Positions 2,611 through 27,629 of a DNA stretch of 28,832 nt are shown here, one piece after another. Position 1 is the first letter of the stretch; each line of letters starts with the position of its first letter. Source of the stretch: a virus; the IMG/VR virus record IMGVR_UViG_3300006990_000119, positions 1 to 28,832 of that record, one strand, 5' to 3'. Position numbers and translations under genes: made by a program. The notes beneath the pieces are model-generated. The model had not been told where the DNA came from. It did not search any database and worked only from the letters and a program-made list of their open reading frames with translations.

Positions 2611-5271
2611 TTACTCAAACGAGAATAAATCATCAAACGTGTTAGCAGTTTGCGTTGCTCCCTTAAGATCCCATTTGAGAACACTGAGCAAGTTGTCAAT
2701 CTTTTGATCTACAATAGTTGCTTCCATCAAACTGTCATCGAACGGAAGTTCTTTGAACCAAATTGGTAATTGCGTTTCATCTGTAGGATAACCAATGCTA
2801 GTCCAGCCCAGAGGATTACTTTTAAGTTTGCACACAATAGTTTTAGCACCGTCCATAATCTCACTGCTATACTTGTCACCGTTCATTTTGCGCATTGTAT
2901 TCCAATTCATTGCTGCTCTAACATGCCCGGGCATGTTTGCTTTGCCTAGTCTCTTTTCTTCTGCACTGTATTTGGTTAAGTTATTAACACGTTTCGGTGT
3001 ACCTTTTTCCCAGCCTGGGCGTTCGTGAAAATTATTTTTAAACTCTTTGATCTTTTCGATAATCTCTTCTCGCTGGCTACCAGTTAGTACATCTAATAAT
3101 AATTCGCTCATGAAGTCTTGCATAACCTTTGGAGTATCACTGCGCTTGAGATCCAGTCCCATTGCTTTTACTTTACCAGGCTTACCATCTGTGTCTAGTC
3201 TAAAACCTTCTAAGTCATATATCAGTGCCGCATAACGCTTCTTTGTGATATACAATCCTTTAGTTGCAACAATCTCTCTGCCGCCTTTGATGATCTCGCC
3301 ATTCTCACGCGGGCAATGAAAAGCACGTTCCATAAACACTGGAAACTCGTCGTTTACTTGGTCTGCAATTCCATCATAAAGTGCTGTAACAATTTCTTTT
3401 GTCCACTCTTGTCTGCCACTTTCTACTTCGTCTTTCATCATGGGCCATGCACTGAAGTACACACTATCAGTATCGCCATATACAATAGCATCTCCTACAT
3501 GATCTTCCTTTCCTGTAAGGAGACCATTAACTGTTTCAGCCATACGCTTGGAGATGCACCTTCCAGTAAGAGTTGTTGATTGCCCAATACGATGGTCAAA
3601 AAAACGACAACCTGGATTAAGAATAGCACCGTATAAACTATTAAGATTAATCTTCTTAACCAATTGTCGCTTATCCCAATATTCCACATCGCCTTGTTCA
3701 TCCTTTGCTTTTTTCAGTTCTTTTTGCATATCTTTACGCTCTGCGTACCACCGCTCTAGTAGTGCAGGGATGATACCTTTACGTTCATAAGTAAAGATAG
3801 TACCATTAGCACTTAGTGTCCACGGCTGATTACTATCAAACATAAGACGCCATACATCATATGCACTGAGCGTATCTTCATCACCGTTCTCCCAGTCAAT
3901 GGTAATCTCAGTGCCGCGCTCCATATTCATTACTGCTTGGTATTCTTTACTACCAAACTCTCCTTCCCATGCATCTGCAAATGACTTTTTATTTGCCATT
4001 TTTGTACGTACTGCATGTTCAGTCATTGTTTGTCGGAGTTGTCCAACAACAGTTTCTGGACCCATATTAAGTGCGCGAATCACACTAGGATACAGACTGT
4101 TAATATCAATAGCACCAATCCAGTCATGCAATCCTTTTTTAGGATATGCCACATAAGCACCTGCTGCTGTAGTGCTTTCACCGTCTCTGTTTTTACGATT
4201 AGGAACAACCATACCGCGAGCATGTGCATCATTAATGATAGCCTGCTCTGTTACAGCAACAGCACCCATAGTAGTCATAAGCAACACTGTGTTTTCATGT
4301 GCCAACACATTACTTAGGTCAATAAAGCGTAGTTTCTTATCTAGTTTGTTTAGCAGTGCAGTATCTTGTCTGTTATAGTCAATGAACTTTTCAAAGTCCT
4401 GATTATATAACTGATCAAGTGTGCCTTCATATGCAACTTTACGTTCATCTAGTTCATGTTCACCGATAGCATCCAATGTATAACTATGACGCTCTTCGTA
4501 TGTGTATTTGCGATACAATTGCATATAGTCTAAGTGTACACGACCTACTAGGTCAAATGTAACACTTTCTTTACCAAAGCGTTCAAATGTGCGTTTCTTA
4601 GGCAACTGTCCAAACAAACACCATTTACGATTATCATCTTTACTAAGCACTCGAGTGATACGATTTACAGTGTACGGAATATCATATCCTTCGCTGTTCC
4701 ATCCACTTACAATGTCTGCATCTTCTAACAAGTCTAAGAAAACTTCAAGCATTTCTGCTTCGCTTGTAAACAAGTAAGTATTATCGAAACGCTTGCATAA
4801 GTCAGTAGCAGTTTCCATTGTCATACCACCTGGTGGAATAGCCAATGTTACAAGTTGATCTGTCCAGTCTAAGTATATTGAGATTGCTGTAATAGGATTA
4901 AAAGGATCCTCAGGACTACTATAGCCCTTCTCTTTGTGAAAGTCTACTTCAATATCGAAAAAAGCAGTTTGCAGTTTAGGAGCATCTGCACCAAGATAGT
5001 TATCTGCTAAACAACGAAACACAGGATTAATATCACTTTCCCATATACCTTTGCCGCCTTGAATCTTCAGTTCACGCTGGAACTCTTTGCGATTGCGTGT
5101 ACTAAATCTGCTTACTGGCTTATCATAGATAGTTTTGTATTTTCCACGTGGATCATCATAATAAAACACATAGTTAGCAGGATACTCACGATATTCTCGT
5201 TTACCATCTACACGTTCAACTACATGAATACGATCATGTTCTCTATCAAAATATGCGTCTACGTAACTCAT
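2611..5271 (-). CDS. 43: family-B DNA polymerase (T4 gp43-like)
   Basis: The protein has 886 residues, close to the 898 of T4 gp43. All exonuclease and polymerase motifs are present: Exo I FFDIEVD (104-110), Exo II GWNSEGYDIPY (190-200), Exo III YNRQDTALL (299-307), Pol A DINSLYPSVIRALNMGPET (389-407), Pol B KKINLNSLYGA (540-549) and Pol C YGDTDSVYF (598-606). The enzyme should have both 5'-3' polymerase and 3'-5' proofreading activity. The C-terminus NTFDDLFSFE resembles the T4 tail 'ASLDFLFG' that binds the sliding clamp. ATG 5271 overlaps the upstream stop as ATGA, so it is translationally coupled to the small membrane protein before it. No intein or split is seen. Confidence 0.97.
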   Translation of the reverse strand: MSYVDAYFDREHDRIHVVERVDGKREYREYPANYVFYYDDPRGKYKTIYDKPVSRFSTRNRKEFQRELKIQGGKGIWESDINPVFRCLADNYLGADAPKLQTAFFDIEVDFHKEKGYSSPEDPFNPITAISIYLDWTDQLVTLAIPPGGMTMETATDLCKRFDNTYLFTSEAEMLEVFLDLLEDADIVSGWNSEGYDIPYTVNRITRVLSKDDNRKWCLFGQLPKKRTFERFGKESVTFDLVGRVHLDYMQLYRKYTYEERHSYTLDAIGEHELDERKVAYEGTLDQLYNQDFEKFIDYNRQDTALLNKLDKKLRFIDLSNVLAHENTVLLMTTMGAVAVTEQAIINDAHARGMVVPNRKNRDGESTTAAGAYVAYPKKGLHDWIGAIDINSLYPSVIRALNMGPETVVGQLRQTMTEHAVRTKMANKKSFADAWEGEFGSKEYQAVMNMERGTEITIDWENGDEDTLSAYDVWRLMFDSNQPWTLSANGTIFTYERKGIIPALLERWYAERKDMQKELKKAKDEQGDVEYWDKRQLVKKINLNSLYGAILNPGCRFFDHRIGQSTTLTGRCISKRMAETVNGLLTGKEDHVGDAIVYGDTDSVYFSAWPMMKDEVESGRQEWTKEIVTALYDGIADQVNDEFPVFMERAFHCPRENGEIIKGGREIVATKGLYITKKRYAALIYDLEGFRLDTDGKPGKVKAMGLDLKRSDTPKVMQDFMSELLLDVLTGSQREEIIEKIKEFKNNFHERPGWEKGTPKRVNNLTKYSAEEKRLGKANMPGHVRAAMNWNTMRKMNGDKYSSEIMDGAKTIVCKLKSNPLGWTSIGYPTDETQLPIWFKELPFDDSLMEATIVDQKIDNLLSVLKWDLKGATQTANTFDDLFSFE

Positions 5272-5528: not shown

Positions 5529-5803
5529 AATCCTGCGGCTACTCCATAACCAAAAACGTTGATACAAGCAAAGTATCCTGTTAGTAACATAATCCAAGCG
5601 GCACCTCTGCGCCAACTTGCATATAATTGTGTTACACTTCCTACAAAAAATGCAGGGTATACCACTAGCATATTGGGATCGTCTGCGTTAACTGCTAGTG
5701 TCAGACTTGCATATACAGTGAATAAGAAACTTATTAGTTCAAAGTAAAATGCAATACTATCACTGCGATAACTGTTTACCCAAAATTGTTTTACACTGCT
5801 CAT
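5522..5803 (-). CDS. small multi-pass membrane protein, unknown function
   Basis: 93 residues from ATG 5803, chosen because it forms a classic ATGA overlap with the preceding nucleosidase-like gene; the longer reading to 5851 would overlap it by 50 bases. Three hydrophobic stretches are visible (about 14-36, 44-58 and 67-88), joined by short loops with an SWRRGAAW motif. I recognise the general look of a small marine-phage membrane protein but no characterised family. It lies in a tight four-gene run (nucleosidase, two membrane proteins, polymerase) with overlapping starts and stops. Confidence 0.7.
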   Translation of the reverse strand: MSSVKQFWVNSYRSDSIAFYFELISFLFTVYASLTLAVNADDPNMLVVYPAFFVGSVTQLYASWRRGAAWIMLLTGYFACINVFGYGVAAGLW

Positions 5804-6366
5804 AGTACTGACAAGAAGTCCCTTACGCCATTGGCAACATTTTGTTCCCATATGTCTGCTTGATGCGGTGTACCTACATAATCTGTTACATACTTGTAGC
5901 AGTCAAACCATACATTCATACGTTTGCAAACACTTGCAATAGCGTATGCTTCCATATCTACAATATCAATATTGTTATCTACAAGCCACGGTTCAAGTTC
6001 ATGTACAAACTGATCGCCGGTGCCTACAGTAAGTCCATGCGTCATGTCTGCACTAAACTCTAGATAGTTATAACCTGCTTCAAAAGGTGTAACACCTCTT
6101 GGTGCTTGTGGTTCTGCGTTCATGTCTCGTTGTACAAAACGTGTAACACGATGCAACCCTGTTAGCTCTTTGTTGCAACTACCCGCAGTGCCATAGTTAA
6201 CCACACGAGGGTGGAAGCCTAAACTATTTGCTTCCATGATTGCTTGTGCAGTTGCTACAGCAGCGTTGACTTTGCCAACGCCAGTATAGATTACTTTGTA
6301 GTTCTTAGGTGCTTGTTTGTATGGAAGTTCGGCTTCCAGTGCAACTAACAATATGCGATATTGCAT
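5800..6366 (-). CDS. MTA/SAH-nucleosidase-like phosphorylase-superfamily enzyme
   Basis: The 188-residue protein belongs to the PNP/UDP phosphorylase superfamily. Visible motifs are LVALEAELP (7-15, with the Glu11 typical of MTA/SAH nucleosidase), YTGVGKVNAAVAT (27-39), YGTAGSC (58-64), VDMEAYAIA (136-144, ribose-binding Met-Glu) and VTDYVG (160-165, with a candidate catalytic Asp162). Such enzymes remove adenine from methylthioadenosine or S-adenosylhomocysteine, or cleave other nucleosides. At 188 residues it is shorter than the usual 230 or so, with loops trimmed. Its place beside the replication genes suggests nucleotide salvage, or relief of methyltransferase product inhibition (inference). 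It starts one base after the stop of the DsbA-like gene. Confidence 0.8.
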   Translation of the reverse strand: MQYRILLVALEAELPYKQAPKNYKVIYTGVGKVNAAVATAQAIMEANSLGFHPRVVNYGTAGSCNKELTGLHRVTRFVQRDMNAEPQAPRGVTPFEAGYNYLEFSADMTHGLTVGTGDQFVHELEPWLVDNNIDIVDMEAYAIASVCKRMNVWFDCYKYVTDYVGTPHQADIWEQNVANGVRDFLSVL

Positions 6367-6661: not shown

Positions 6662-6690
6662 AGTATACTACTTAATACCTTGTGCGTCAA
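6662..6690 (-). promoter_or_regulatory. sigma70-like promoter before the DsbA-like/polymerase operon
   Basis: Minus strand: TTGACG (6685-6690), 17-base spacer, TATACT (6662-6667). It lies in the last codons of the upstream membrane-protein gene. Transcription would start near 6655, about 28 bases before ATG 6627. It separates an early replication operon from the late-type membrane module upstream. Confidence 0.6.
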
Positions 6691-7135
6691 GCACAAAATC
6701 ATAACTTTCGTAGTTACCTTTGTTTAATGGTCCGCCATATCCACTTGGAGGGAGACTGCCCTTCATTTGTTGTGGTATACCTTTTGCAGATCGTTGTTTT
6801 GCATTTTCTAATGCTTGCTTGTTTTCTTCTGTGTTTAATATGCGAACATTTTTCGGACGATCTTCTTTTGGCTGTATAATCCATACAAATATAAACTGTT
6901 CATTAGGATCGTTAGTGTGTGCCAAATATAAACTTTCATCAGGTATAGTTTGGAATATTGGATAACCGAGTATATCAGTTACAGTCTTGTACGTACTAAA
7001 AACACATACAAGAGCAACAGGAATAACTAACATCATAACAAATAAATTTCTAGCAAAATGGATACCAATGCCCAACACAATTAATGTTAGTATAAGAACA
7101 CTTACAAACAGCGGTAGTAAACTAAAATCAAACAT
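6668..7135 (-). CDS. two-TM membrane protein of the channel module
   Basis: 155 residues. Two adjoining hydrophobic segments (about 5-26 and 30-48) precede a soluble, Pro/Gly-rich C-terminal part (about 55-155) with a QFIFVWIIQP strand. The C-terminus would lie on one side of the membrane. I recognise no family. The gene is the last of a four-gene run with the ExbD/MotB-like and MotA/ExbB-like genes. Its ATG overlaps the preceding stop by one base (TAATG) and is served by an AGAGGAG site within the end of that gene, so it is probably made in fixed ratio with them. I infer a role as a third component of the same membrane complex. Confidence 0.75.
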   Translation of the reverse strand: MFDFSLLPLFVSVLILTLIVLGIGIHFARNLFVMMLVIPVALVCVFSTYKTVTDILGYPIFQTIPDESLYLAHTNDPNEQFIFVWIIQPKEDRPKNVRILNTEENKQALENAKQRSAKGIPQQMKGSLPPSGYGGPLNKGNYESYDFVLDAQGIK

Positions 7136-7812
7136 TAGTTTCTCCTCTGATGAGAAAAGTGTCTCGGTCTAGTTATAATTTCATGTCTTACTTTGTCAGA
7201 TGATACAAAGTCTCCATTGTCATCTAATGTAAAGTTAACTAAAGTAATTTGTTGTCCGCGCTCGTTATATGTAAATTTATCAACAACAGTTTCAATATAA
7301 GGATTTACTTTTATAAGTGTAAATTCTATCCAACCAGTAGTATTGATTGGGCGTTCGCCTGCTTCTATTTGATCTATAGGATAATTTCGACTATACACTT
7401 GTGCCATTACTTTGTATTCTCCTGGCACAGTTCCTCGCAGAGTAACAACTTCTCTGTTTATCATAATTGTTTTTTTAATTGGCTTGCCTGCCGTTTGTGA
7501 TTCTACAAACTCGATCACATCGCTCGAATGACCTAGATCATCTCTTTCTAGGTGCATGAGTCCGCCTTCTCTTGCATTAAAATTAATTAAATTGCCTGCA
7601 GGATCCTTAACCCATATGTCAATATCATCATTTAGTTCAGGATCCCATTCCATAACAAGCAACCATTCCGCTTTACTTGGAACATCGGAATTTTTTGCAA
7701 CTGGATTAATAAGAATAAAAGCAATCATGAATAGGTAAACAAATCCAATCAGAAGATTGAATAATAAATCAGTAAAGCCAATGCTGCTCTTATATCTACT
7801 TCTGTCTTTCAT
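7135..7812 (-). CDS. ExbD/MotB-like protein with DUF2135/YfaP-like periplasmic domain
   Basis: 225 residues from ATG 7812, which has an AGGAAG site; a TTG one codon earlier is less likely. A short basic cytoplasmic head is followed by one transmembrane segment (about 14-36, GFTDLLFNLLIGFVYLFM). Its Asp15 sits where ExbD, TolR and MotB carry their essential proton-binding Asp. The periplasmic part has DIDIWVKDPAGNLINFN, a later ERDDLG and PGEYKVMAQVYSRN, which match the 'DxDLxVxDPxG ... RDD ... PGxYxV' pattern of DUF2135/YfaP-type beta-sandwich domains. No OmpA-like peptidoglycan-binding domain is seen. The MotA/ExbB-like gene lies just upstream in the same run, which strongly supports a channel pair. 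Confidence 0.72.
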   Translation of the reverse strand: MKDRSRYKSSIGFTDLLFNLLIGFVYLFMIAFILINPVAKNSDVPSKAEWLLVMEWDPELNDDIDIWVKDPAGNLINFNAREGGLMHLERDDLGHSSDVIEFVESQTAGKPIKKTIMINREVVTLRGTVPGEYKVMAQVYSRNYPIDQIEAGERPINTTGWIEFTLIKVNPYIETVVDKFTYNERGQQITLVNFTLDDNGDFVSSDKVRHEIITRPRHFSHQRRN

Positions 7813-7942
7813 CAAACTTCCTTTGAAGATGTTTTACTCTACGCACATACTCTGCGTAAGTCATGGTACATCCACAACGTTCGCAATGTTTTGTCCATTC
7901 AGTACTGGACATTGTTAATCTAGGTTTAATCTGTTTCGACAT
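7796..7942 (-). CDS. 48-residue Cys-containing small protein between the channel genes
   Basis: An ATG at 7942 opens a frame of 48 residues ending TAG at 7796-7798. It contains HCERCGC (residues 19-25), a CxxC pair with an extra Cys and His that could bind zinc, followed by a charged helix (AEYVRRVKHLQRKFDERQK). It overlaps the MotA/ExbB-like stop by 17 bases and the ExbD/MotB-like start by 17 bases, and fills the only gap in the module. No strong ribosome site is seen, so coupling to the upstream gene would be needed. The gene is plausible rather than proven. Confidence 0.5.
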   Translation of the reverse strand: MSKQIKPRLTMSSTEWTKHCERCGCTMTYAEYVRRVKHLQRKFDERQK

Positions 7943-8375
7943 TTACTAGTTGCACTTTCAAAGCCTGACTGCACACAAGTCCAACTAGCGTTGTATAAAG
8001 TGCAGTACTCATTCCCAGAGCCATGTCTGTTAATGCTGTCTTTACGCTTGTTGTATCTGATACATTTAAACTCTCGAAACTGCTACCCAGCATTAGAATA
8101 AATCCTATAACGGTACCTATCATGCCTAATGCCAGCATCATCTCTGTAATGAACCATGCTATATTGGTCCCACTTTCTACAGACTTGCCTTTACTCTTTT
8201 TGTAAGTTTCATAACCTACAAAGATACTTGATCCAAAAAATAATGTGATAATAACAAAACTTAAACGTGTTATGTCGTTGTCTAGCAATGCTTGGGTAAA
8301 TCCAAACGCATGCACAATAAACATAGCTGCCATACTTGTGCAGAATAGCAGCCACCAACGTAAAAACATCGTCAT
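7926..8375 (-). CDS. MotA/TolQ/ExbB-like proton channel protein
   Basis: 149 residues with four hydrophobic segments (about 5-27, 38-55, 77-98 and 117-138). The stretch MLALGMIGTVIGFILMLGS (80-98) and the later ALTDMALGMSTALYTTLVGLVCS (114-136) match the two signature helices of the MotA/TolQ/ExbB family, whose core reads 'xGLLGTVxGMxxxF ... I..AL.TTA.GL..A.P'. In bacteria these proteins form pentamers around two ExbD/TolR/MotB helices and convert ion flow into motion. The next large gene downstream encodes an ExbD/MotB-like partner. ATG 8375 has a GGAGAAC site and a late-type promoter box just upstream. The family call is strong; the role in the phage is unknown. Confidence 0.8.
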   Translation of the reverse strand: MTMFLRWWLLFCTSMAAMFIVHAFGFTQALLDNDITRLSFVIITLFFGSSIFVGYETYKKSKGKSVESGTNIAWFITEMMLALGMIGTVIGFILMLGSSFESLNVSDTTSVKTALTDMALGMSTALYTTLVGLVCSQALKVQLVNVETD

Positions 8376-8390: not shown

Positions 8391-8398
8391 TATTTATT
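8391..8398 (-). promoter_or_regulatory. late-type promoter box AATAAATA
   Basis: Minus strand AATAAATA (one mismatch to TATAAATA) followed by CAACGGAGAAC. This is the same arrangement as the perfect box at 2595, where CAACTGGAGAAC follows. It lies 16 bases before ATG 8375 and would start the MotA/ExbB-like membrane module. Confidence 0.5.
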
Positions 8399-12103: not shown

Positions 12104-12352
12104 TTAGTCTCTCATATTAAATGCAAAACTTACTTGCCTTGCTAGTTGTGTGCCTCTATCTCTTTCGGCTTTTTTACTGCTCTTCTTCATTTTATTAGCC
12201 TTTGCACGGAGTCTTTTGAGATCCGTTTTGCTAAGTTTATCTCCGGCGCCCTTACCCAAATACATTGCTGCTTTGCGTTTTAAACTCCCTGGTCGGCTGC
12301 CTGGTTTTGCTTTTTGTGTAAAGTCCTCAGTTAGTTTCTGTAGTTCCTCCAT
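12104..12352 (-). CDS. small basic helical protein, head-region type
   Basis: 82 residues from ATG 12352 (MEELQKLTED). An in-frame ATG at 12400 would add a low-complexity Asn/Gln-rich front and overlap the upstream gene by 74 rather than 26 bases, so the inner start is preferred but not certain; neither has a clear ribosome site. The body is strongly basic (SLKRKAAMYLGKGAGDKL, LKRLRAKANKMKKSSKK) and would suit binding to nucleic acid or to an acidic scaffold. L7-T-E9 fits the protease-site pattern. Function is unknown. Confidence 0.6.
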   Translation of the reverse strand: MEELQKLTEDFTQKAKPGSRPGSLKRKAAMYLGKGAGDKLSKTDLKRLRAKANKMKKSSKKAERDRGTQLARQVSFAFNMRD

Positions 12353-15300
12353 CAGACTGTTTACTTGGTTGTTGTGATTGTTGGGCTGATCGTTTTCCAT
12401 CGTTCTGCTCTTTTTGTTGTTTGATCCACGCTATTGCTTTTCTATTCTTAGGTGGAGTGTTTAAAAATCTCTGTGTCTCATTGTACACTTTATCAAAGTT
12501 TTTCTGTCTATCAAGGTCTTCTAATCCTCCACTGTTATCAATGATGTGAAAACGGTCTGCACCAAAAATCTGTTGAAACTTCATCAAATTTTGTTGTACA
12601 TCATTCCACATTTTTTCTACTTTTGCAGGTTCTAAACTGCGTTCTCTTTGTTGGTTACGCTGTTGTGCAACTTCCAGACTTGTGTTTACATATATCATAC
12701 TAACATCATAACCAATTGCTTTTAGTTTTTCTGCCATCACTTGATACTTGGAAACATCCTTGCCTGTGCCGTCAATGATCAAACCTAAGCGTCCATCTAA
12801 GTAAGTTCTTTCGCGCTGTCTAGATAAACCTTTTGCTTTGTCACGAATCTCTTGACCCTGGGGTGAAAAAATAGTCTCAGGATCCAGAGAAAGACCCTGC
12901 TTTTTCATTAAAAATTCATATACTTCATCGCTGTTAATACTGCGTAGTCCTGTGCCGCCAAGTATGTTCTTAGCAACAAAACTCTTGCCACTGCCTGGTC
13001 CACCTGCTAGGAACACTGCTTTAAAGATATGCGGATCGTTAACGCCTTCTTCTAGTTCAGCTTCTCCCATTACATTGTCCCATGCACGTTTAAGCATGCT
13101 AGGCTTTTGTTTTTTCTTTGGCTTGTAATGATTTGGTTGTGAATATACGCCAGTGCCTCTTTGATAAGTAGCACCTTTTCTACTTTTCTTCACTGCTCTG
13201 CCTGGAGTACCGCTTCTATTACCAAATGTATTTCTCAAAGATCCTGAAACTGCTTCCCAGTTTTCATCCATTATGTCCTTTACAGTGTCAATACTCTGAG
13301 GACCTGATGGATGTGTAGGATTAATACTAACAGTCTTACCGTTCATTAGTTCACTAATGTTTGCTGATTTGCCAATTTGATCCAGTAGTTTATGTAGTGG
13401 ATCGTTTGCATCATGATCAATTTCATAGTTAGGCTTGCCACGTACTTCACTGCGTTCACCTGTACTAGTATCCTTAATGTGTAGGATTAACTGATCTTCG
13501 TCATTTTCTAGTTTTAACTGATAACCTTCAACAGCAAATTCTTTATTACTTGTCTTAAAGTCTTTCTTACGCATTACAGTTTTAGCAATCAAATCTAATT
13601 CGTTATTTTCTCTGTCATACTGTAGTGCAAAGGGCAAGTTAATATCTGTTTGCAAGTCTTTCATTACTGCTTCTTGACCAGGACCCATTTGTGCAATAGG
13701 CTTTGCCCAACGCTTGTATTCTTGTTTGAATAAGCGTGTAAGTTCTGCAGGTGTAATAGGCTTTTTGTTACGAGGATCATTAACACGATCTAGGAAGTGG
13801 CGTGTAAACTCTACATCAATACCTACTTTAGAAAACAGTTTGTCTGCAAATGTTTCTAGTTGGTCAATGTCAACTTGTGTTACTGCTTCCATTGCAACAG
13901 GTCTAGGCACTGCCAAACGCTTTTGACGTTCACGCTTGCGTTCTTCTGCTTTTTGTGCAAGATACTTTTTCATTTTAAGATAATCGCCTACTGGATCATC
14001 TTCTTTGTGTCCAAGCATATTGTCTATCCAACTACCAATATCTTCGTAACGTAGTTTGCCAGGCGTGCTTGGCTTTATTTTAAGCGGACGATGTGGGAAT
14101 ATATTAATTGCTCCACCAGAAGTTGGTACACTAATTGCACCTCGAGTTTCATCATAAATGTCTTTATAGTAAACATCATCAAATTTGTTAACAAGTGCAT
14201 ACAGTTGCTTTGCTGGCATATTAACACGGAAAACATTAAGATCATTACCTGTATTCATTGCTGCTAACCAACGATGATGTCCGTCGATAATATAATTGTC
14301 ACTGCTAAGGATAATTGGCTTTGTGTTAGGACCTAGTTCTACATTCTTTTTAAGTTGCTTAATAACACCTGCATCACTAAACTCATCCTGCATTGCCTTA
14401 ACATCACGTGCTGGAATTATTTCCTTTTTAAATGTAACACCATTATCTCGCATGTAGTCTAAAAACTTTGGATAGTCTTTACTCTTTACCTGTGGCATAT
14501 CCTTGCGCTTTATGCCCAGTGTATCTTTTGCGTCAGGCTTTTGTATTTTTAGTTCATCTAATTGAACACTAAATGCTGTACTAGGAATAATGCCGTTGTA
14601 TGCTAGTGTACTGTCATCATCCATTACATTTGGATCATCTTCTAACTTTTCAAGATCCAGTTTGCTTGCATCAATTACGAGTACAACAATATTATCAATG
14701 TATTCGTCTGGCACTTCTTCATTTGCTTCTGCATGACTTACAGCAACTTCATAGTCCTTGGCGAGGTATACATAACCTGGCTTACTATCTTCCCATTGTG
14801 TTTGTGCGCCACTACCGCCTAGTCCATTCTTCATAATACTATCAAGGAACGGTTTGTATGTTGCATGATACAATGATGCAGGTTCTTCATTTACGTCCTG
14901 TGTAAGTGGCTTTACTATGTTCTTGTATGTCCAACTGTCTTTGTTAATGTTGCCTTTACTAATATTTTTAGCAACATCTGCTACTTCTTCGCCACCACGT
15001 TTAGCAATATCTAATACTTTTGCACCACCACGTTTAGCAACATCCAATGCTGTTTTTTTAAGTTCTGGCTTTGCCGCATCCCATGCTTGGCTGACTTTAC
15101 TAGTAATTTTATCTGACAAACTAGGTTCAGGTTTTTTACTAGCAATATGCTTTTGTATTTGACTGTCTGTTGGCCCATCAACAATATCAATAGGCTTGTA
15201 CTTTGTAGTAAGTGGTTTTTTAGGAATACCTTGGTAATCTTTTACACCAGCCTTCGCCGCTCCGTACCATTGACCCCAGCCACTTTTTGCAGCATTTTGC

Positions 15301-15782
15301 AATGCAAAATCAATTTGCTGTTGGATACTAGTTGCATCATTTGCACTGCGTAAATCTTTGCCGTATGTCTTTTCCCATTCGTTACCTAAGCCGCCGCCTC
15401 TGTATAACTGGAAAGGACCCCAACTATCTTCTTTGCCTTTGTACTTTTGTTGATTGCCTTTTTTAACAGTACTCTGATAATTCATACCGCCTTCAGATTT
15501 CCATACTTTAACTGCTGTGTCAGGATCTACACCATGGCGATCTGCATATGCACGAATCCAAGTTTCCATTTTTTCTGGACTAATTTCTTTGTAGTCTTCA
15601 GAAAGTCCCACGTTAAACAACGTGTTTGGATCACTATTCTTTGCGGCAGTTTTGTGTAGCAGTTTAGGCTTACCGTTCATCAAACCAAGTTTTTTTGCTT
15701 GGCGTTCTGTTTCACCAGGTTTAACGTCTTTAGTTGTATTTTGTGCAGTAATACGACCTACACCAAATTCGTCTAGTTTCAT
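12327..15782 (-). CDS. giant polyvalent protein: lysozyme-like, ART-like, ParB-like and P-loop kinase modules
   Basis: 1151 residues with modules in order. (1) Short N-terminus MKLDEFGVGR. (2) Residues 70-190, a lytic-transglycosylase-like domain (KVWKSEGGMNYQ with candidate Glu97, then SWGPFQLYRGG). (3) An 11-residue amphipathic repeat, 241-275. (4) Residues 302-412, an ADP-ribosyltransferase-like domain (SLYHATYKPFLDSIMKNGL, GYVYLAKDYEVAVSHA). (5) Residues 450-535, a ParB/sulfiredoxin-like domain (IIDGHHRWLAA 498-508). (6) Residues 640-760, a conserved phage domain (FTRHFLDRVNDPRNKKPIT). (7) Residues 918-1115, a zeta-toxin/polynucleotide-kinase-like P-loop domain (FLAGGPGSGKS 924-934, IIDGTGKD 1002-1009). 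This fits the published concept of 'polyvalent proteins' that phages inject to counter the host. I/L-x-E sites at 62 and 912 mark module edges. Activities are inferred from motifs. Confidence 0.85.
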   Translation of the reverse strand: MKLDEFGVGRITAQNTTKDVKPGETERQAKKLGLMNGKPKLLHKTAAKNSDPNTLFNVGLSEDYKEISPEKMETWIRAYADRHGVDPDTAVKVWKSEGGMNYQSTVKKGNQQKYKGKEDSWGPFQLYRGGGLGNEWEKTYGKDLRSANDATSIQQQIDFALQNAAKSGWGQWYGAAKAGVKDYQGIPKKPLTTKYKPIDIVDGPTDSQIQKHIASKKPEPSLSDKITSKVSQAWDAAKPELKKTALDVAKRGGAKVLDIAKRGGEEVADVAKNISKGNINKDSWTYKNIVKPLTQDVNEEPASLYHATYKPFLDSIMKNGLGGSGAQTQWEDSKPGYVYLAKDYEVAVSHAEANEEVPDEYIDNIVVLVIDASKLDLEKLEDDPNVMDDDSTLAYNGIIPSTAFSVQLDELKIQKPDAKDTLGIKRKDMPQVKSKDYPKFLDYMRDNGVTFKKEIIPARDVKAMQDEFSDAGVIKQLKKNVELGPNTKPIILSSDNYIIDGHHRWLAAMNTGNDLNVFRVNMPAKQLYALVNKFDDVYYKDIYDETRGAISVPTSGGAINIFPHRPLKIKPSTPGKLRYEDIGSWIDNMLGHKEDDPVGDYLKMKKYLAQKAEERKRERQKRLAVPRPVAMEAVTQVDIDQLETFADKLFSKVGIDVEFTRHFLDRVNDPRNKKPITPAELTRLFKQEYKRWAKPIAQMGPGQEAVMKDLQTDINLPFALQYDRENNELDLIAKTVMRKKDFKTSNKEFAVEGYQLKLENDEDQLILHIKDTSTGERSEVRGKPNYEIDHDANDPLHKLLDQIGKSANISELMNGKTVSINPTHPSGPQSIDTVKDIMDENWEAVSGSLRNTFGNRSGTPGRAVKKSRKGATYQRGTGVYSQPNHYKPKKKQKPSMLKRAWDNVMGEAELEEGVNDPHIFKAVFLAGGPGSGKSFVAKNILGGTGLRSINSDEVYEFLMKKQGLSLDPETIFSPQGQEIRDKAKGLSRQRERTYLDGRLGLIIDGTGKDVSKYQVMAEKLKAIGYDVSMIYVNTSLEVAQQRNQQRERSLEPAKVEKMWNDVQQNLMKFQQIFGADRFHIIDNSGGLEDLDRQKNFDKVYNETQRFLNTPPKNRKAIAWIKQQKEQNDGKRSAQQSQQPSKQSDGGTTETN
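14992..15057 (-). repeat. 33-base in-frame repeat coding for an 11-residue helical unit
   Basis: Two 33-base units starting at 14992 and 15025 share the block ccaccacgtttagcaa. They encode LDVAKRGGAKV and LDIAKRGGEEV, followed by a partial third unit (ADVAKNI). An 11-residue period suggests a long amphipathic helix that could lie on a membrane or form a bundle. Confidence 0.7.
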
Positions 15783-22095: not shown

Positions 22096-22795
22096 TGTTT
22101 TCTGTGTTCCTAATTTGATATTCTATAATTTTGTTGATATGTGCGCCTAATTTAAATTGGGCAAGTTGTAGCATTTTTTCATCTTCTACATAACCTAATG
22201 ATTCTCCTGCCCAAATTCCATTTGTCCTAGTCCAATGCCTGGACCAGATTATTTTCGTATGTACTGTAGTACCATGAGTGCCATACGGAGAAAGTTTTAT
22301 TTTGTCTGGGTACTGTAATGCCCATTCACGCCAGTTAAGTATTTCTTGATGATCCATACGACTACCAAATAGTTGAAATTTATATTTTTTATGTGGTAGA
22401 TTCTTTTTGCGATAGCGAATATTGCGTTCAGTGACTTCTCCTGGAAATACACTAATACAATCAACATACGCATAGTGCAAAACATATTCATCATCGTTTG
22501 CTTGCGTCCGGGCTATTTTATTTGTATACTGTATAAGTTTATCTATGTCATAGAGATTATTTGAATAATAATTAACGAGATAGTTTCCCTCAACACGTAC
22601 TCTGTCACCTTGCTTTTTAGCAAACTTTCTTATTACAGAAATTTCACTAGGTGAGCCTAAATGCCAAACATCTCGATACTTAGGAAGCATTATAGATAGT
22701 CTGTATATGTATTTTGAATAAAATAATCTATCGTTATGCTTTAACAGTAGACTGTTCTGATCCAGAATCTCTTGTAATTTCTGCTGTTGATCCAT
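22085..22795 (-). CDS. unknown protein, 236 residues, overlapping the clpA end
   Basis: The sequence is mixed alpha/beta, with aromatic and basic motifs (RLFYSKYIYRLSIMLPKYRD, KYKFQLFGSRMDHQEI, VHTKIIWSRHWTRTNGIW). No family is recognised. The start at ATG 22795 makes a 62-base overlap with the clpA-like gene, which is long. The RLFYSKYIYRL part lies just after that stop and looks genuine, so a start inside clpA is likely; the next ATG (22690) would remove it. The ribosome site is weak. Confidence 0.6.
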   Translation of the reverse strand: MDQQQKLQEILDQNSLLLKHNDRLFYSKYIYRLSIMLPKYRDVWHLGSPSEISVIRKFAKKQGDRVRVEGNYLVNYYSNNLYDIDKLIQYTNKIARTQANDDEYVLHYAYVDCISVFPGEVTERNIRYRKKNLPHKKYKFQLFGSRMDHQEILNWREWALQYPDKIKLSPYGTHGTTVHTKIIWSRHWTRTNGIWAGESLGYVEDEKMLQLAQFKLGAHINKIIEYQIRNTENNDE

Positions 22796-25016
22796 CTAAA
22801 TACCTAAATTTAACAAGTATATTATTGTTTACATTTCTTACTTTAATTTTACATCCGTTTAGATTTTTGTCAACTAATAATTGTTTAGCAATAGGCATAC
22901 GAAGTTTCGTGTCGATTGTTCTCGCCATAGGTCTTGCGCCCATTCGATCATCGTAACCTTCTTGTAATATTAGATCTATACTAGGCTCGTCAATACTTAG
23001 GACAATTCCTTTTTCATTTAATTGTGCTTCTAACTCTTGAATAAATTTCAGTGCAACTTTACGTTTAGCAAGATCATTTAACGATCCGAACTTACATACT
23101 GCATCAATACGATTGCGGAACTCTGGAGCAAAATAATTTTTATATGCATCATCAACTGCATCGTCATGGTATTCTACATCATTAAATCCGATAGTGCGCT
23201 TTTCTGCTTGTGCAGCACCTAGGTTAGTTGTTAAAATAACAAAGCAATTTCTTGCATCTGCACGTTTTCCATTTGAACCAGTAATGAATCCTTCATCCAT
23301 CAATTGTAGTAACACACTACTAACATCCGGATGCGCCTTTTCAATTTCGTCAAATAGTATTACTGCATGCGGGTTGCGTTCAATATCTCTAATAAGTAAG
23401 CCGCCACTAAGGTTAGCATCTTCATATCCTACATATCCAGGAGGTGCACCGATAAAACGTGCAACTGTGTGACGTTCTTGATATTCACTCATATCATAAC
23501 GTAACAGTTTCATTCCATTTGCATCTGCAAGTTGTTTTGCAAGTTCTGTTTTGCCTGTGCCAGTTGGTCCAGTAAAAACAAAAACACCTAATGTTTTGTC
23601 ACGTTTGTTAAGTCCTGCTTTAGCAACCCATACTTTATCAAGTACTGTATCAACTGCATTATCTTGTCCGTATACTTTAGATTTTATTTTGCTCTCAACA
23701 TTCGATGGAATAATTTTGACTTCTTTGTTATCAAGTTGATCCATTGGAATCTTAGCATATCTACTAATCTCTTCTAAAATATTTTTCTTATCAATTACAG
23801 CATCTTTTACACCAAGTCTGCGTTGCTTTGCGCTAGCACTATCAATCATATCAAATGCTTTGTCAGGCAATTTTTTATCTGTTAAGTATCTAACACTTAA
23901 ATCAACTGCTGAGTTGACTGCATTTTCGGTAATAGTACATCCGTGAAACTGTTCGTAATACTTTTTACTATTGCTAAGAATAGTTTTTGCTAATGCAGGA
24001 GTTGGCTCATCAACTGTAATATGATAAAAACGGCGCATTAATGCTCTGTCTTTTTCAAAACTAGCAGTATATTCTTCCCAGGTTGTGCTTGCAATAACTT
24101 TAAGTTTTCCTCTACCTAAATACGGCTTTAGCATATTAGCAAAGTCTGTGCCGCCACTGCCGCCGGCGCCTGCTCCTTTAAGTGTATGTGCTTCGTCGAT
24201 GAATAGAATACAGTTCTTTTTTGCAATCAGTGCTTCTAATACTTCTTTAACACGTTCTTCAAATTGACCACGATACTGTGTGCCAGCAAGCATATTTCCT
24301 ACATCTAGATTATAAACAGTGTGTTTTTGTAAATATTCTGGCACTTGGTTATTAACAACCTTTACAGCAAGTCCTTCGGCAACTGCTGTTTTACCTACGC
24401 CTGGATCGCCAACCATAAGCACATTACTTTTATTACGTCTAGCAAAAGTTTGTGCAATATCATCAATAATGTCATCTCTGCCAATTACAGGATCTAACTT
24501 ATTGTTCTTTGCTTGCTCGGTCAGATCTTCGCAAAAATCGTTTATTACGCCTTCTAGGTATTGTTCTTGTTGTTTGTCTAGTGCGCCATTATTATGATTC
24601 TTTTTTATGTGATGTATAATTTCATCTTTGTTGACACTATATTTCATCAAGAAGTAACTACTGTGAGTATTGTTTTCACTCATAATACTAATGAAAATAT
24701 CTAGTAATGTTACTTCTTCTCTTCCGCTAAACAGCACACTAGTAAGTGCGCGATTGAACACTCTCTCTAGAGCTTGTGTTTTAACTGGAGATTTTTTAGT
24801 CGAAGTAGTTTTGTCGTATGTAGTTGAAATATGACTTTCTAAATCTATAGAAAGTTCATTTACTTGTGCTCCATAATCTTGTAAAAGTTTATGCAAATCC
24901 TTATTTGCTAAAATAGCAAGTAACATATGTTCAGTACTGACATATGCATGTCCGTATTTGACTGCAATATCTTCGCCTATCTTTAACGCTTTATCTACTT
25001 CTTTTGATGTTTTCAT
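22734..25016 (-). CDS. clpA: ClpA-like AAA+ unfoldase keeping a ClpP-docking IGF loop
   Basis: 760 residues, the size of E. coli ClpA (758). Residues 1-145 are a double Clp-N domain. D1 has GDPGVGKT (203-210) and LFIDEAH (271-277). D2 has GPTGTGKT (483-490), ILFDEIEKAHP (553-563), FRNRID as sensor region and MGARPMART. No ClpB middle domain is present. Between the D2 Walker B and the sensor lies EKRTIGFND (605-613). IGF/IGL is the tripeptide by which ClpA and ClpX dock into ClpP, so a partnership with host ClpP is possible. The gene begins with an ATGA overlap to dnaJ. It likely unfolds protein substrates, perhaps host or phage regulators (inference). Confidence 0.93.
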   Translation of the reverse strand: MKTSKEVDKALKIGEDIAVKYGHAYVSTEHMLLAILANKDLHKLLQDYGAQVNELSIDLESHISTTYDKTTSTKKSPVKTQALERVFNRALTSVLFSGREEVTLLDIFISIMSENNTHSSYFLMKYSVNKDEIIHHIKKNHNNGALDKQQEQYLEGVINDFCEDLTEQAKNNKLDPVIGRDDIIDDIAQTFARRNKSNVLMVGDPGVGKTAVAEGLAVKVVNNQVPEYLQKHTVYNLDVGNMLAGTQYRGQFEERVKEVLEALIAKKNCILFIDEAHTLKGAGAGGSGGTDFANMLKPYLGRGKLKVIASTTWEEYTASFEKDRALMRRFYHITVDEPTPALAKTILSNSKKYYEQFHGCTITENAVNSAVDLSVRYLTDKKLPDKAFDMIDSASAKQRRLGVKDAVIDKKNILEEISRYAKIPMDQLDNKEVKIIPSNVESKIKSKVYGQDNAVDTVLDKVWVAKAGLNKRDKTLGVFVFTGPTGTGKTELAKQLADANGMKLLRYDMSEYQERHTVARFIGAPPGYVGYEDANLSGGLLIRDIERNPHAVILFDEIEKAHPDVSSVLLQLMDEGFITGSNGKRADARNCFVILTTNLGAAQAEKRTIGFNDVEYHDDAVDDAYKNYFAPEFRNRIDAVCKFGSLNDLAKRKVALKFIQELEAQLNEKGIVLSIDEPSIDLILQEGYDDRMGARPMARTIDTKLRMPIAKQLLVDKNLNGCKIKVRNVNNNILVKFRYLDGSTAEITRDSGSEQSTVKA

Positions 25017-25840
25017 ACTTTGTAATCTCTCAATTTAGTGCATATATTTAATTGTTGCTCAGACAAGTTTTCAGGTATTTTTACTAATACTTGAACAAGT
25101 AAGTTGTCTCTGTTTCCTTGCTTGTTATACATTCCGTGACCGGGTAATTTAAGGGTAGTGCCGTACTGAGTTCCGGCTGGTATATTTAGATTGATTATCT
25201 TATTATCAAGTGTATTTATTTGTACAACTGTACCTATTATAGCATCCCATACACTGATTGTCAAGTGCATTTTAAGATCATTGTTTTCTCGAATAAATTT
25301 ATCATGCTCGTCAACAACAATTGTTACAGTAAGATCACCAGGAGGTAAATTGTTATTACTCGAATCACCTAGTCCATTGTATTTTATTTTTGTAGAATTT
25401 TTAACACCTCGCGGTATTTTAAAGTTTACTAAATGTCTGCTACCATCAGTGTGTTTGATACTTACTGTTTTATCTTGTTCCGATAGTAATTCTTCAAGTG
25501 TTACATTTACTGAGATGCCTAAATTTTTATTAATTTTAGCACGTTGGTATTCTCTTTTACTAGGATGAAACCCAGCACTCCCAAATATAGTAAACATATC
25601 ATCAAATACATCTCCGTTATGTGTTATGTCTGGGTATCTCTGCTTGCGTGAATTTCTGTGATCAAACATAGCACGTTCATGTGGATCTTTTAATTTTTCA
25701 TATGCTTCATTAACCGCATGGAAACGCTCAACATCTCCTCCATTATCTGGATGATGTTGTTTTGCTAGTGTACGGTATGCACGTTGTATATCACTAACAC
25801 TACAGGTTGGGTCAAGTCCTAATACATCATAGTAATTCAT
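25013..25840 (-). CDS. DnaJ/CbpA-like co-chaperone
   Basis: 275 residues. The J-domain at 1-70 (NYYDVLGLDP, AYRTLAKQHHPDNGG) has the essential HPD at 30-32. The rest matches the two C-terminal substrate-binding domains (VTLEELLSEQDKTVSIKHTD, LNIPAGTQYGTTLKLPGHG). The Cys-rich zinc finger and long Gly/Phe linker of true DnaJ are missing, as in CbpA. The J-domain stimulates Hsp70 ATPase, here presumably that of the host. ATG 25840 has no ribosome site and lies 1-2 bases after the predicted transcription start. The gene feeds directly into clpA. Confidence 0.92.
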   Translation of the reverse strand: MNYYDVLGLDPTCSVSDIQRAYRTLAKQHHPDNGGDVERFHAVNEAYEKLKDPHERAMFDHRNSRKQRYPDITHNGDVFDDMFTIFGSAGFHPSKREYQRAKINKNLGISVNVTLEELLSEQDKTVSIKHTDGSRHLVNFKIPRGVKNSTKIKYNGLGDSSNNNLPPGDLTVTIVVDEHDKFIRENNDLKMHLTISVWDAIIGTVVQINTLDNKIINLNIPAGTQYGTTLKLPGHGMYNKQGNRDNLLVQVLVKIPENLSEQQLNICTKLRDYKV

Positions 25841-26647: not shown

Positions 26648-26903
26648 CAATACGAGCTTCTAGTTCATCAATCTTTTTAGTGACATGAGGATACTTTTTG
26701 CGCCATGCATTGGGGTCGTTTTGCAACCAAGTCCAGCCCCACTTGTTTACCAAGCATTCGCAACTAGCATCAAACTTACCAACTGCCCATATTGCCATTC
26801 TAGTATCTTTGAACCAAAACAAAAATGCAGCGCCAAAAAGTGATCCTGCTATTGCTGTATAAATCCATAGTGTATCACCAAACATTCTATCAAGTAGTTC
26901 CAT
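26622..26903 (-). CDS. single-TM protein with C-terminal coiled coil, lysis-region
   Basis: 93 residues. One hydrophobic segment (about 13-31, IYTAIAGSLFGAAFLFWF) leads to a Trp-rich region (WGWTWLQNDPNAW) and a charged coiled coil (KKIDELEARIAKLEDQSE). Similar proteins lie beside spanins in marine T4-like phages. A role in lysis or the virion membrane is inferred from the neighbours. Its ATG overlaps the o-spanin stop as TAATG. Confidence 0.7.
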   Translation of the reverse strand: MELLDRMFGDTLWIYTAIAGSLFGAAFLFWFKDTRMAIWAVGKFDASCECLVNKWGWTWLQNDPNAWRKKYPHVTKKIDELEARIAKLEDQSE

Positions 26904-27304
26904 TATTTTTCCTCGTTTTCATTTTCATTAGGAGTAACTGCTTTTTCATAATAGACAATAACTTCAGTTTGTTGATTTATAAAGCGTCTTAGTTCAGCAA
27001 CATTAAGTGCCAAGTTTTCATAGTCTTTGATTGATAGCGCAACAATAGCAAAGTCACCGTTTTCAGCAGTAAACTCAGCAATAAACTCATCTAAGTTATC
27101 GCTGTTCACTACGTATATACGTGTGTCAATTAAATCAATTGGCTTTGGGCGGGCTGCTAGTGGCACTGTCAACTGTTGTACTGTTGTCACTACCTTTACT
27201 TCCGGTTCCGGCATCATCCTGCTGCAACCAGTTAGGAAGAGGCTGGTCATTAGCACCGCCGCTGTCGCCCATGATGTCACGCCATATTTTTGCTGTTGCG
27301 CCAT
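26903..27304 (-). CDS. o-spanin-like outer-membrane lipoprotein
   Basis: 133 residues. A signal peptide ends in LFLTGCSRM, where LTGC (24-27) is a lipobox and Cys27 would carry the lipid. The mature part is Pro-rich at first (PEPEVKVV, AARPKPIDL), then folded (ALSIKDYENLALNVAELRRF). It resembles cyanophage and pelagiphage o-spanins. The start lies inside the i-spanin gene in another frame (170-base overlap), as in Rz/Rz1 pairs. With the i-spanin it would fuse the inner and outer membranes at lysis. Confidence 0.82.
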   Translation of the reverse strand: MAQQQKYGVTSWATAAVLMTSLFLTGCSRMMPEPEVKVVTTVQQLTVPLAARPKPIDLIDTRIYVVNSDNLDEFIAEFTAENGDFAIVALSIKDYENLALNVAELRRFINQQTEVIVYYEKAVTPNENENEEK

Positions 27305-27629
27305 TCATGCGTCCTTCGAGATTTTCTGGATCACGCAAAGCATCACCAATTAAGTCTAGTTTACGTAATTTCCTACGTAAATTATCACCATATGCTTCTG
27401 CTTTTTGTAATTTGTTTTGTAGTTCTGTAGTCAATTTTGCATTTTTATTCGCAGCTTCATTTAACGCACTAACACTTGCTTCTGCTGTTTGCACAGCAAC
27501 TTCTAGTTTTGCATTATTTTCTGCTAGAGTTTGTATCCTTTGTTGCGTACTAGTATAATAACTATAGCCGGCATAACCTACACCGCCTAGTAAGCCTAGT
27601 ATAACCAACATAGCATAAACTTTAATCAT
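27135..27629 (-). CDS. i-spanin-like inner-membrane protein
   Basis: 164 residues. One N-terminal transmembrane segment (about 4-24) precedes a long periplasmic coiled coil (TQQRIQTLAENNAKLEVAVQ and on to about 90). Then come DPENLEGRMNGATAKIWRDI and a low-complexity Ser/Thr-rich tail. This is the layout of an i-spanin. GGAG lies before ATG 27629. Its 3' half also encodes the o-spanin in another frame, which may explain the loose tail. Confidence 0.82.
   Translation of the reverse strand: MIKVYAMLVILGLLGGVGYAGYSYYTSTQQRIQTLAENNAKLEVAVQTAEASVSALNEAANKNAKLTTELQNKLQKAEAYGDNLRRKLRKLDLIGDALRDPENLEGRMNGATAKIWRDIMGDSGGANDQPLPNWLQQDDAGTGSKGSDNSTTVDSATSSPPKAN

Follow-up and report, generated by a model that had tools for sequence, protein, structure and literature searches.

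Relation of the locus to known ion-driven systems

To our knowledge, few systems use the passage of ions to drive motion across the bacterial envelope, namely, Mot, Ton, Tol, Gld, Agl, and Zorya. The periplasmic axle of GldL/GldM, the motor of type 9 secretion, is β-rich and not of the OmpA type. In Zorya (PMC11890865) and in the Mot motors (PMC9389320), an Asp packs against Ser/Thr residues of the surrounding subunits. Here, we describe a set of three genes, A-B-C, that represents a further probable family of ion motors, common to Alphaproteobacteria and to phages of rhizobia and of marine bacteria. Subunits B and C have no family name in Pfam, PHROGs, NCBIfam, or PADLOC: B matched no family in these libraries, and C received no family name from any profile library searched.

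The window, that is, the whole stretch of DNA analyzed, is a virus record of 28.8 kb in which the module lies on the minus strand, from position 8375 down to 6668. Gene A (7926-8375) encodes a four-helix subunit of the MotA/TolQ/ExbB type with 149 amino acid residues and a minimal cytoplasmic loop. Gene B (7135-7812) encodes a partner of 225 residues, counted from the ATG, whose topology resembles that of ExbD/MotB, with an Asp15-bearing helix at the N-terminus followed by a predicted periplasmic β-sandwich, and gene C (6668-7135) encodes 155 residues with two helices followed by a small α/β domain, also predicted to be periplasmic. An ORF for a 48-residue CxxC protein (7796-7942) is located between A and B. 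The overlaps A/CxxC, CxxC/B, and B/C are 17, 17, and 1 bases, respectively, and a GGAG/GGAAG/GAGGAG-like ribosome site precedes each of A, B, and C. When the ORFs were rechecked, the four overlapping genes at 6668-8375 named by the original prediction were found to be correct.

Gene A encodes a compact MotA/TolQ/ExbB-type subunit

The original prediction had read the 149-residue protein as a relative of MotA/TolQ/ExbB, and it indeed matched PF01618 above the cut-off (E 2.9e-8; 33.9 bits against 22.9); 25 of 34 A family members matched it at E ≤ 0.01. The top PDB matches of the A family profile were MotA, ZorA, PomA, TolQ, and ExbB chains. Conserved residues place the signature helices (LGMIGTVIGF...TALYTTLVGLV) at residues 77 to 140 (7956..8147, minus strand). 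Among 59 representatives, G87 and G132 were found in all 59, G84 and A125 in 57, and G91 and T129 in 56, and the 40 cellular A homologues keep largely the same signature residues. The conserved Gly and Thr of the two C-terminal helices would face the channel, and the retained T129 can be compared with the Ser/Thr ring of Zorya and the Mot motors.

These features, together with a small one-helix partner carrying an Asp, are shared with MotA/TolQ/ExbB systems, whereas the length of about 149 residues and the near absence of a cytoplasmic part are not; A ends approximately 10 residues past its last helix. The median length of A was 149 residues in phages versus 255 in cells, and the segment containing the cytoplasmic loop was 44 versus 88 residues; the extra length of cellular A lies mostly in this loop and at the N-terminus. 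A tblastn search with A in isolated phages gave no match, although A is present there, because the protein is too short and too diverged for a single-sequence search. No usable scanning patterns could be derived from the A and C alignments because of their variability.

B and C combine membrane anchors with predicted periplasmic domains

In the AlphaFold2 model of B (mean pLDDT 82), the transmembrane helix spans residues 9 to 35 (7708..7788, minus strand). The conserved Asp that the original prediction had placed at residue 15 lies inside this helix (codon 7768-7770), and its numbering fits the ATG form. The Asp was present in 58 of the 59 B representatives, including every phage and prophage protein; the sole exception was the cellular protein of L055, a locus from a Rhizobiales genome. 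It occupies the usual position in 36 of the 41 cellular B proteins. The five that lack it there are those of L055, L160, L161, L162, and L172, four of which have a nearby FDP motif; the motor may therefore be altered in these cells.

Two helices had also been predicted for C, and its model (mean pLDDT 74) agrees, with helices at residues 4 to 27 and 31 to 56 joined by a positively charged loop. The mean net charges of this hairpin (+1.5), of the loop between helices 2 and 3 of A (+1.6), and of the N-terminus of B (+1.5) contrast with negative charges on the opposite A loops (-0.5 and -1.3). According to the positive-inside rule, these charges indicate the orientation of MotA/MotB, with the domains of B and C in the periplasm. 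An OB-like fold was rejected for the C domain, as the Z score was at most 7.2, which is inside the background that the tool warns of.

The β-sandwich of B comprises residues 46 to 206 (7195..7677, minus strand). VIA-align of the model gave TerD as the highest match (3ibz; Z 11.0, 3.7 Å over 138 residues), followed by 9a6r_B (9.9), 2qng (9.6), the TerD homologue 2qz7 (9.3), and 7jtk_A (9.3), after which the score fell to 6.3; the Foldseek match was non-significant. Within this domain, W56, D63, D65, L88, D91, D92, G94, and E121 were invariant (59 of 59; 40 to 41 of 41 in cells). B resembles the TerD family of tellurite-resistance and stress proteins in its predicted fold and in an acidic RDDxG...E pattern in a similar register, but it is membrane-anchored and periplasmic by prediction and has no significant profile match. 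B had no TerD (PF02342) match in Pfam, the hhalign probability against seven TerD proteins was 0.1, and the profile-profile comparisons, for which the TerD alignment was drawn mainly from plasmid ter operons, were non-significant; the short B-TerD profile alignment falls in the expected register, though it too was non-significant. We therefore describe B as having a TerD-like fold and reject its placement in the TerD family by sequence. Our guess is that the invariant acidic set D63, D65, D91, D92, and E121 may bind metal.

Other assignments of the B domain found no profile support. The original prediction had proposed a DUF2135/YfaP-like β-domain; none of the 35 family members matched PF09906 at E ≤ 1, two cellular B homologues reached only 12.6 to 13.8 bits (cut-off 22), and a DUF2135 search of four rhizobial genomes gave no match; this identity was rejected by profile. 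The expected relation to ExbD/TolR also failed, as PF02472 was unmatched at E ≤ 1 in B of the window and in all 35 members. The predicted lack of an OmpA-type domain was borne out, with no OmpA-type match in Pfam and a β-sandwich in the model. By profile, B is thus neither ExbD/TolR nor OmpA-like, and this, along with the constant third subunit C, sets the module apart from MotA/TolQ/ExbB systems. A non-OmpA, β-rich periplasmic axle would be shared with GldL/GldM (PMC9389320), but no sequence match to these proteins was found, and GldM is a long four-domain shaft, whereas B has a single domain. A comparison with viral folds yielded nothing informative.

A-B-C is a strict three-gene module in phages

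A tblastn search with B retrieved 27 phage records, and every host was Rhizobium or Sinorhizobium. The carriers comprise Pootjesviridae of approximately 155 kb, one 171-kb phage, 68-kb phages such as N3_13, and 16-3-like temperate phages, and viral contigs contributed 44 further loci. Using profiles, we detected A-B-C in this order in essentially all phage loci (approximately 90 viral loci); the exceptions were L022, with no detectable C, and L046 and L050, which are cut by the contig end. Because the first loci had been chosen by B, the search was repeated from A, and both B and C were present in order in all 36 A-seeded loci. A and B were never apart in phage loci long enough to judge, which, together with the PF01618 match, upholds the predicted stator-like A/B pair.

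A-B-C is therefore a strict three-gene module. Of the four genes in the original prediction, A, B, and C form the constant core, and the CxxC gene is lineage-specific and limited to the window, near-identical contigs, and L045/L079. In comparison with L045, dN/dS of the three core genes was 0.08 to 0.17 (B, 0.17), and values overall were mostly between 0.02 and 0.3, except for A in the pair L025-L036 (0.65); the three genes are under purifying selection. Their pairwise distances were correlated over 96 taxa (r 0.82 to 0.90; permutation maximum, 0.10). Homing endonuclease genes often lie between module genes, as in L006, L007, and L009, leaving the module genes intact, and a metallophosphoesterase-like gene is inserted among A, B, and C in L018 (5417-5944). 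A literature search, mainly of journals readable without subscription, found no description of a phage-encoded ExbB/ExbD-type pair, no naming of the pair in AP-16-3, and no function ascribed to the three-gene set.

Several phages carry a trypsin-like protease beside the module. It is a secreted protein in the 16-3-like group, whereas the marine contig L053 encodes, directly after C (3049-4059), a PDZ-containing lipoprotein of the DegP type (lipobox seen by eye); the latter pairing is independent of the former. Other loci with such proteases are L004:2286-3185, L035:4191-4856, and L041:4501-5148, and the side of the module on which the protease lies differs by phage group. No protease was found beside the cellular operons. 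In another marine phage contig, a gene for an SbmA/BacA-type peptide transporter (L047:2839-3855; Pfam E 1.3e-73) lies directly upstream of A.

Chromosomal operons and origin of the module

A homologous operon was found at 7199-9195 of L055, where it is flanked by prfA and murB/murC. Of 385 genomes from the class of the L055 genome, 60 matched the B profile, versus 20 of 398 from its phylum; as indirect evidence, these counts fit a family belonging mainly to Alphaproteobacteria; about 15% of the sampled class genomes, or one in seven, carry the operon. Forty cellular loci were taken with their flanks (L145-L184), giving 41 with L055. A adjoins B in 40 of them, and C was detected in 38 and, by eye, also in L184. 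The operons lie on contigs of up to 8 Mb with ordinary housekeeping neighbors, for example, the suf operon (by eye). The original reading of a phage stator-like pair is supported for A and B but was too narrow: the system has three subunits and also occurs as an operon in alphaproteobacterial chromosomes.

Within one cellular lineage, a gene for a DUF3108-like lipoprotein follows C in seven loci (L149, L152-L156, and L182; best score 28.8 bits against a cut-off of 27), with several copies in L152 and L182; the system may therefore reach the outer membrane in some bacteria. Genes for PQQ-type dehydrogenases or β-propellers adjoin the operon on the opposite strand in L157, L158, L163, L184, and L145 (by eye).

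The maximum-likelihood tree of B (100 rows) splits into two large parts, both of them containing cells and phages: 16-3-like phages group with one set of cells, and lytic and T4-like phages, including the window, group with another. Its supported branches require at least two changes between the cell and phage labels. The root is the midpoint, so the direction of transfer is inferred; the wide chromosomal spread and the longer cellular A favor transfer from cells to phages. The module would thus trace back to an operon of alphaproteobacterial chromosomes, taken up by phages on at least two occasions. We are highly confident of the architecture and shared origin of A-B-C.

Proposed function and alternatives

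By analogy with the MotA/TolQ/ExbB class, A, B, and C would form an autonomous inner-membrane motor driven by ions, in which two B subunits have their helices enclosed by five A subunits and ion passage at the Asp of B moves B relative to A. B would hold its TerD-like domain in the periplasm, where the domain of C probably touches it, so that the output would be mechanical work on the envelope and not on a cytoplasmic partner. Phage A appears to have shed much of the cytoplasmic loop. As read from gene position, the module is probably made early or midway in infection, and it may alter or protect the envelope of the host, for example, by excluding competing phages or by keeping the envelope working.

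In our judgment, A-B-C is most likely a stripped phage version of a new alphaproteobacterial 5:2 ion-driven envelope motor that modifies or guards the host envelope, and we rate the chance of this reading as even. The specific envelope role of the phage module is itself proposed tentatively, its leading forms being to exclude other phages or to maintain the envelope. The broader view of A-B-C as a new class of alphaproteobacterial trans-envelope motor, with a TerD-like axle and a third subunit, captured by phages at least twice, minimized, sometimes coupled to a protease, and controlling the envelope of the infected cell, falls a little short of an even chance. If the inferred working is true, this would be a very small natural motor of its kind, tractable by phage genetics through genes p038, p040, and p042 of phage 16-3, and it would provide a testable explanation of why a virus drives the envelope of its host.

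Alternatively, phage A, B, or C could mix with the A-B-C motor of the host (or with Tol, Exb, or Zorya) and jam or redirect it. The homology of the phage set to a host operon and the shortened phage A would suit such a decoy or inhibitor, but the phages retain the complete set, including B and C proteins of their own that co-evolve, and an invariant Asp, neither of which a decoy needs, and we consider this explanation unlikely. A Zorya-like exclusion device, in which the motor would detect a phage arriving at the envelope and block it, also appears improbable. A aligned with ZorA models (E 6e-6 for the window and 7.5e-9 for phage 16-3) and with the NCBIfam ZorA model (7.6e-5); the Asp partner and the phage context are common to both systems, and phage Ter proteins have been proposed to act in superinfection competition (PMC7824862). 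However, A lacks the long ZorA tail, B has no detected peptidoglycan-binding domain and no match to ZorB models, and no nuclease gene was seen adjoining the module, whereas the tail and the peptidoglycan domain are essential in Zorya (PMC11890865). The missing tail and ZorB match rule out the set as Zorya itself.

Gene position bears on lysis timing and virion injection, both of which the original prediction had suggested and which are disfavored by the arrangement in several phage groups. The order in the 16-3-like temperate phages (tail genes, lysozyme, accessory genes, protease, A, B, and C) would accommodate a module for lysis or envelope disruption at the end of infection. By contrast, the module lies amid replication genes in N3_13 (68 kb), where lysozyme and the structural genes occupy the other strand; in Pootjesviridae, it has gyrase A on one side and a late sigma factor on the other; and in the group of the window, it is upstream of DNA polymerase. 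Because the module sits among replication genes in several carriers, and because its homologues are chromosomal and a spanin-like pair of overlapping lipoprotein and one-helix genes is already present in the window (26903-27629; LysC/Rz1-like match sub-threshold), we give a lysis role very little credence. The late promoter of the original prediction was not recovered: no exact TATAAATA lies upstream of A, and the nearest match to it, AATAAATA at 8391-8398, has one mismatch, a class of match seen 50 times versus 66 expected. An auxiliary metabolic role, in which the motor energizes uptake or periplasmic metabolism of the host during infection, could be read from the transporter gene upstream of A in one phage contig and from the PQQ-type and β-propeller genes beside several cellular operons (by eye); the PQQ-type neighbors, however, are mostly on the opposite strand and were seen at only 9 of the 41 loci, a TonB-like partner was not seen, and we regard this role as highly unlikely.

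Other features of the window

The DNA polymerase of the window is nearest to that of the Sinorhizobium jumbo phage Phosso (48%), followed by the Agrobacterium phage Atu_ph07, and neither A nor B was found in these two phages. At 5800-6366, the window encodes a nucleosidase of the phosphorylase superfamily (PF01048, E 2.6e-11), whose gene overlaps that of a small membrane protein. Genes for a ClpA/B-like ATPase and a DnaJ-like protein adjoin each other at 22734-25840 (by eye), and a protein of 1151 residues encoded at 12327-15782 has a C-terminal zeta-toxin/AAA_33 kinase-like domain (Pfam E 8.7e-13).
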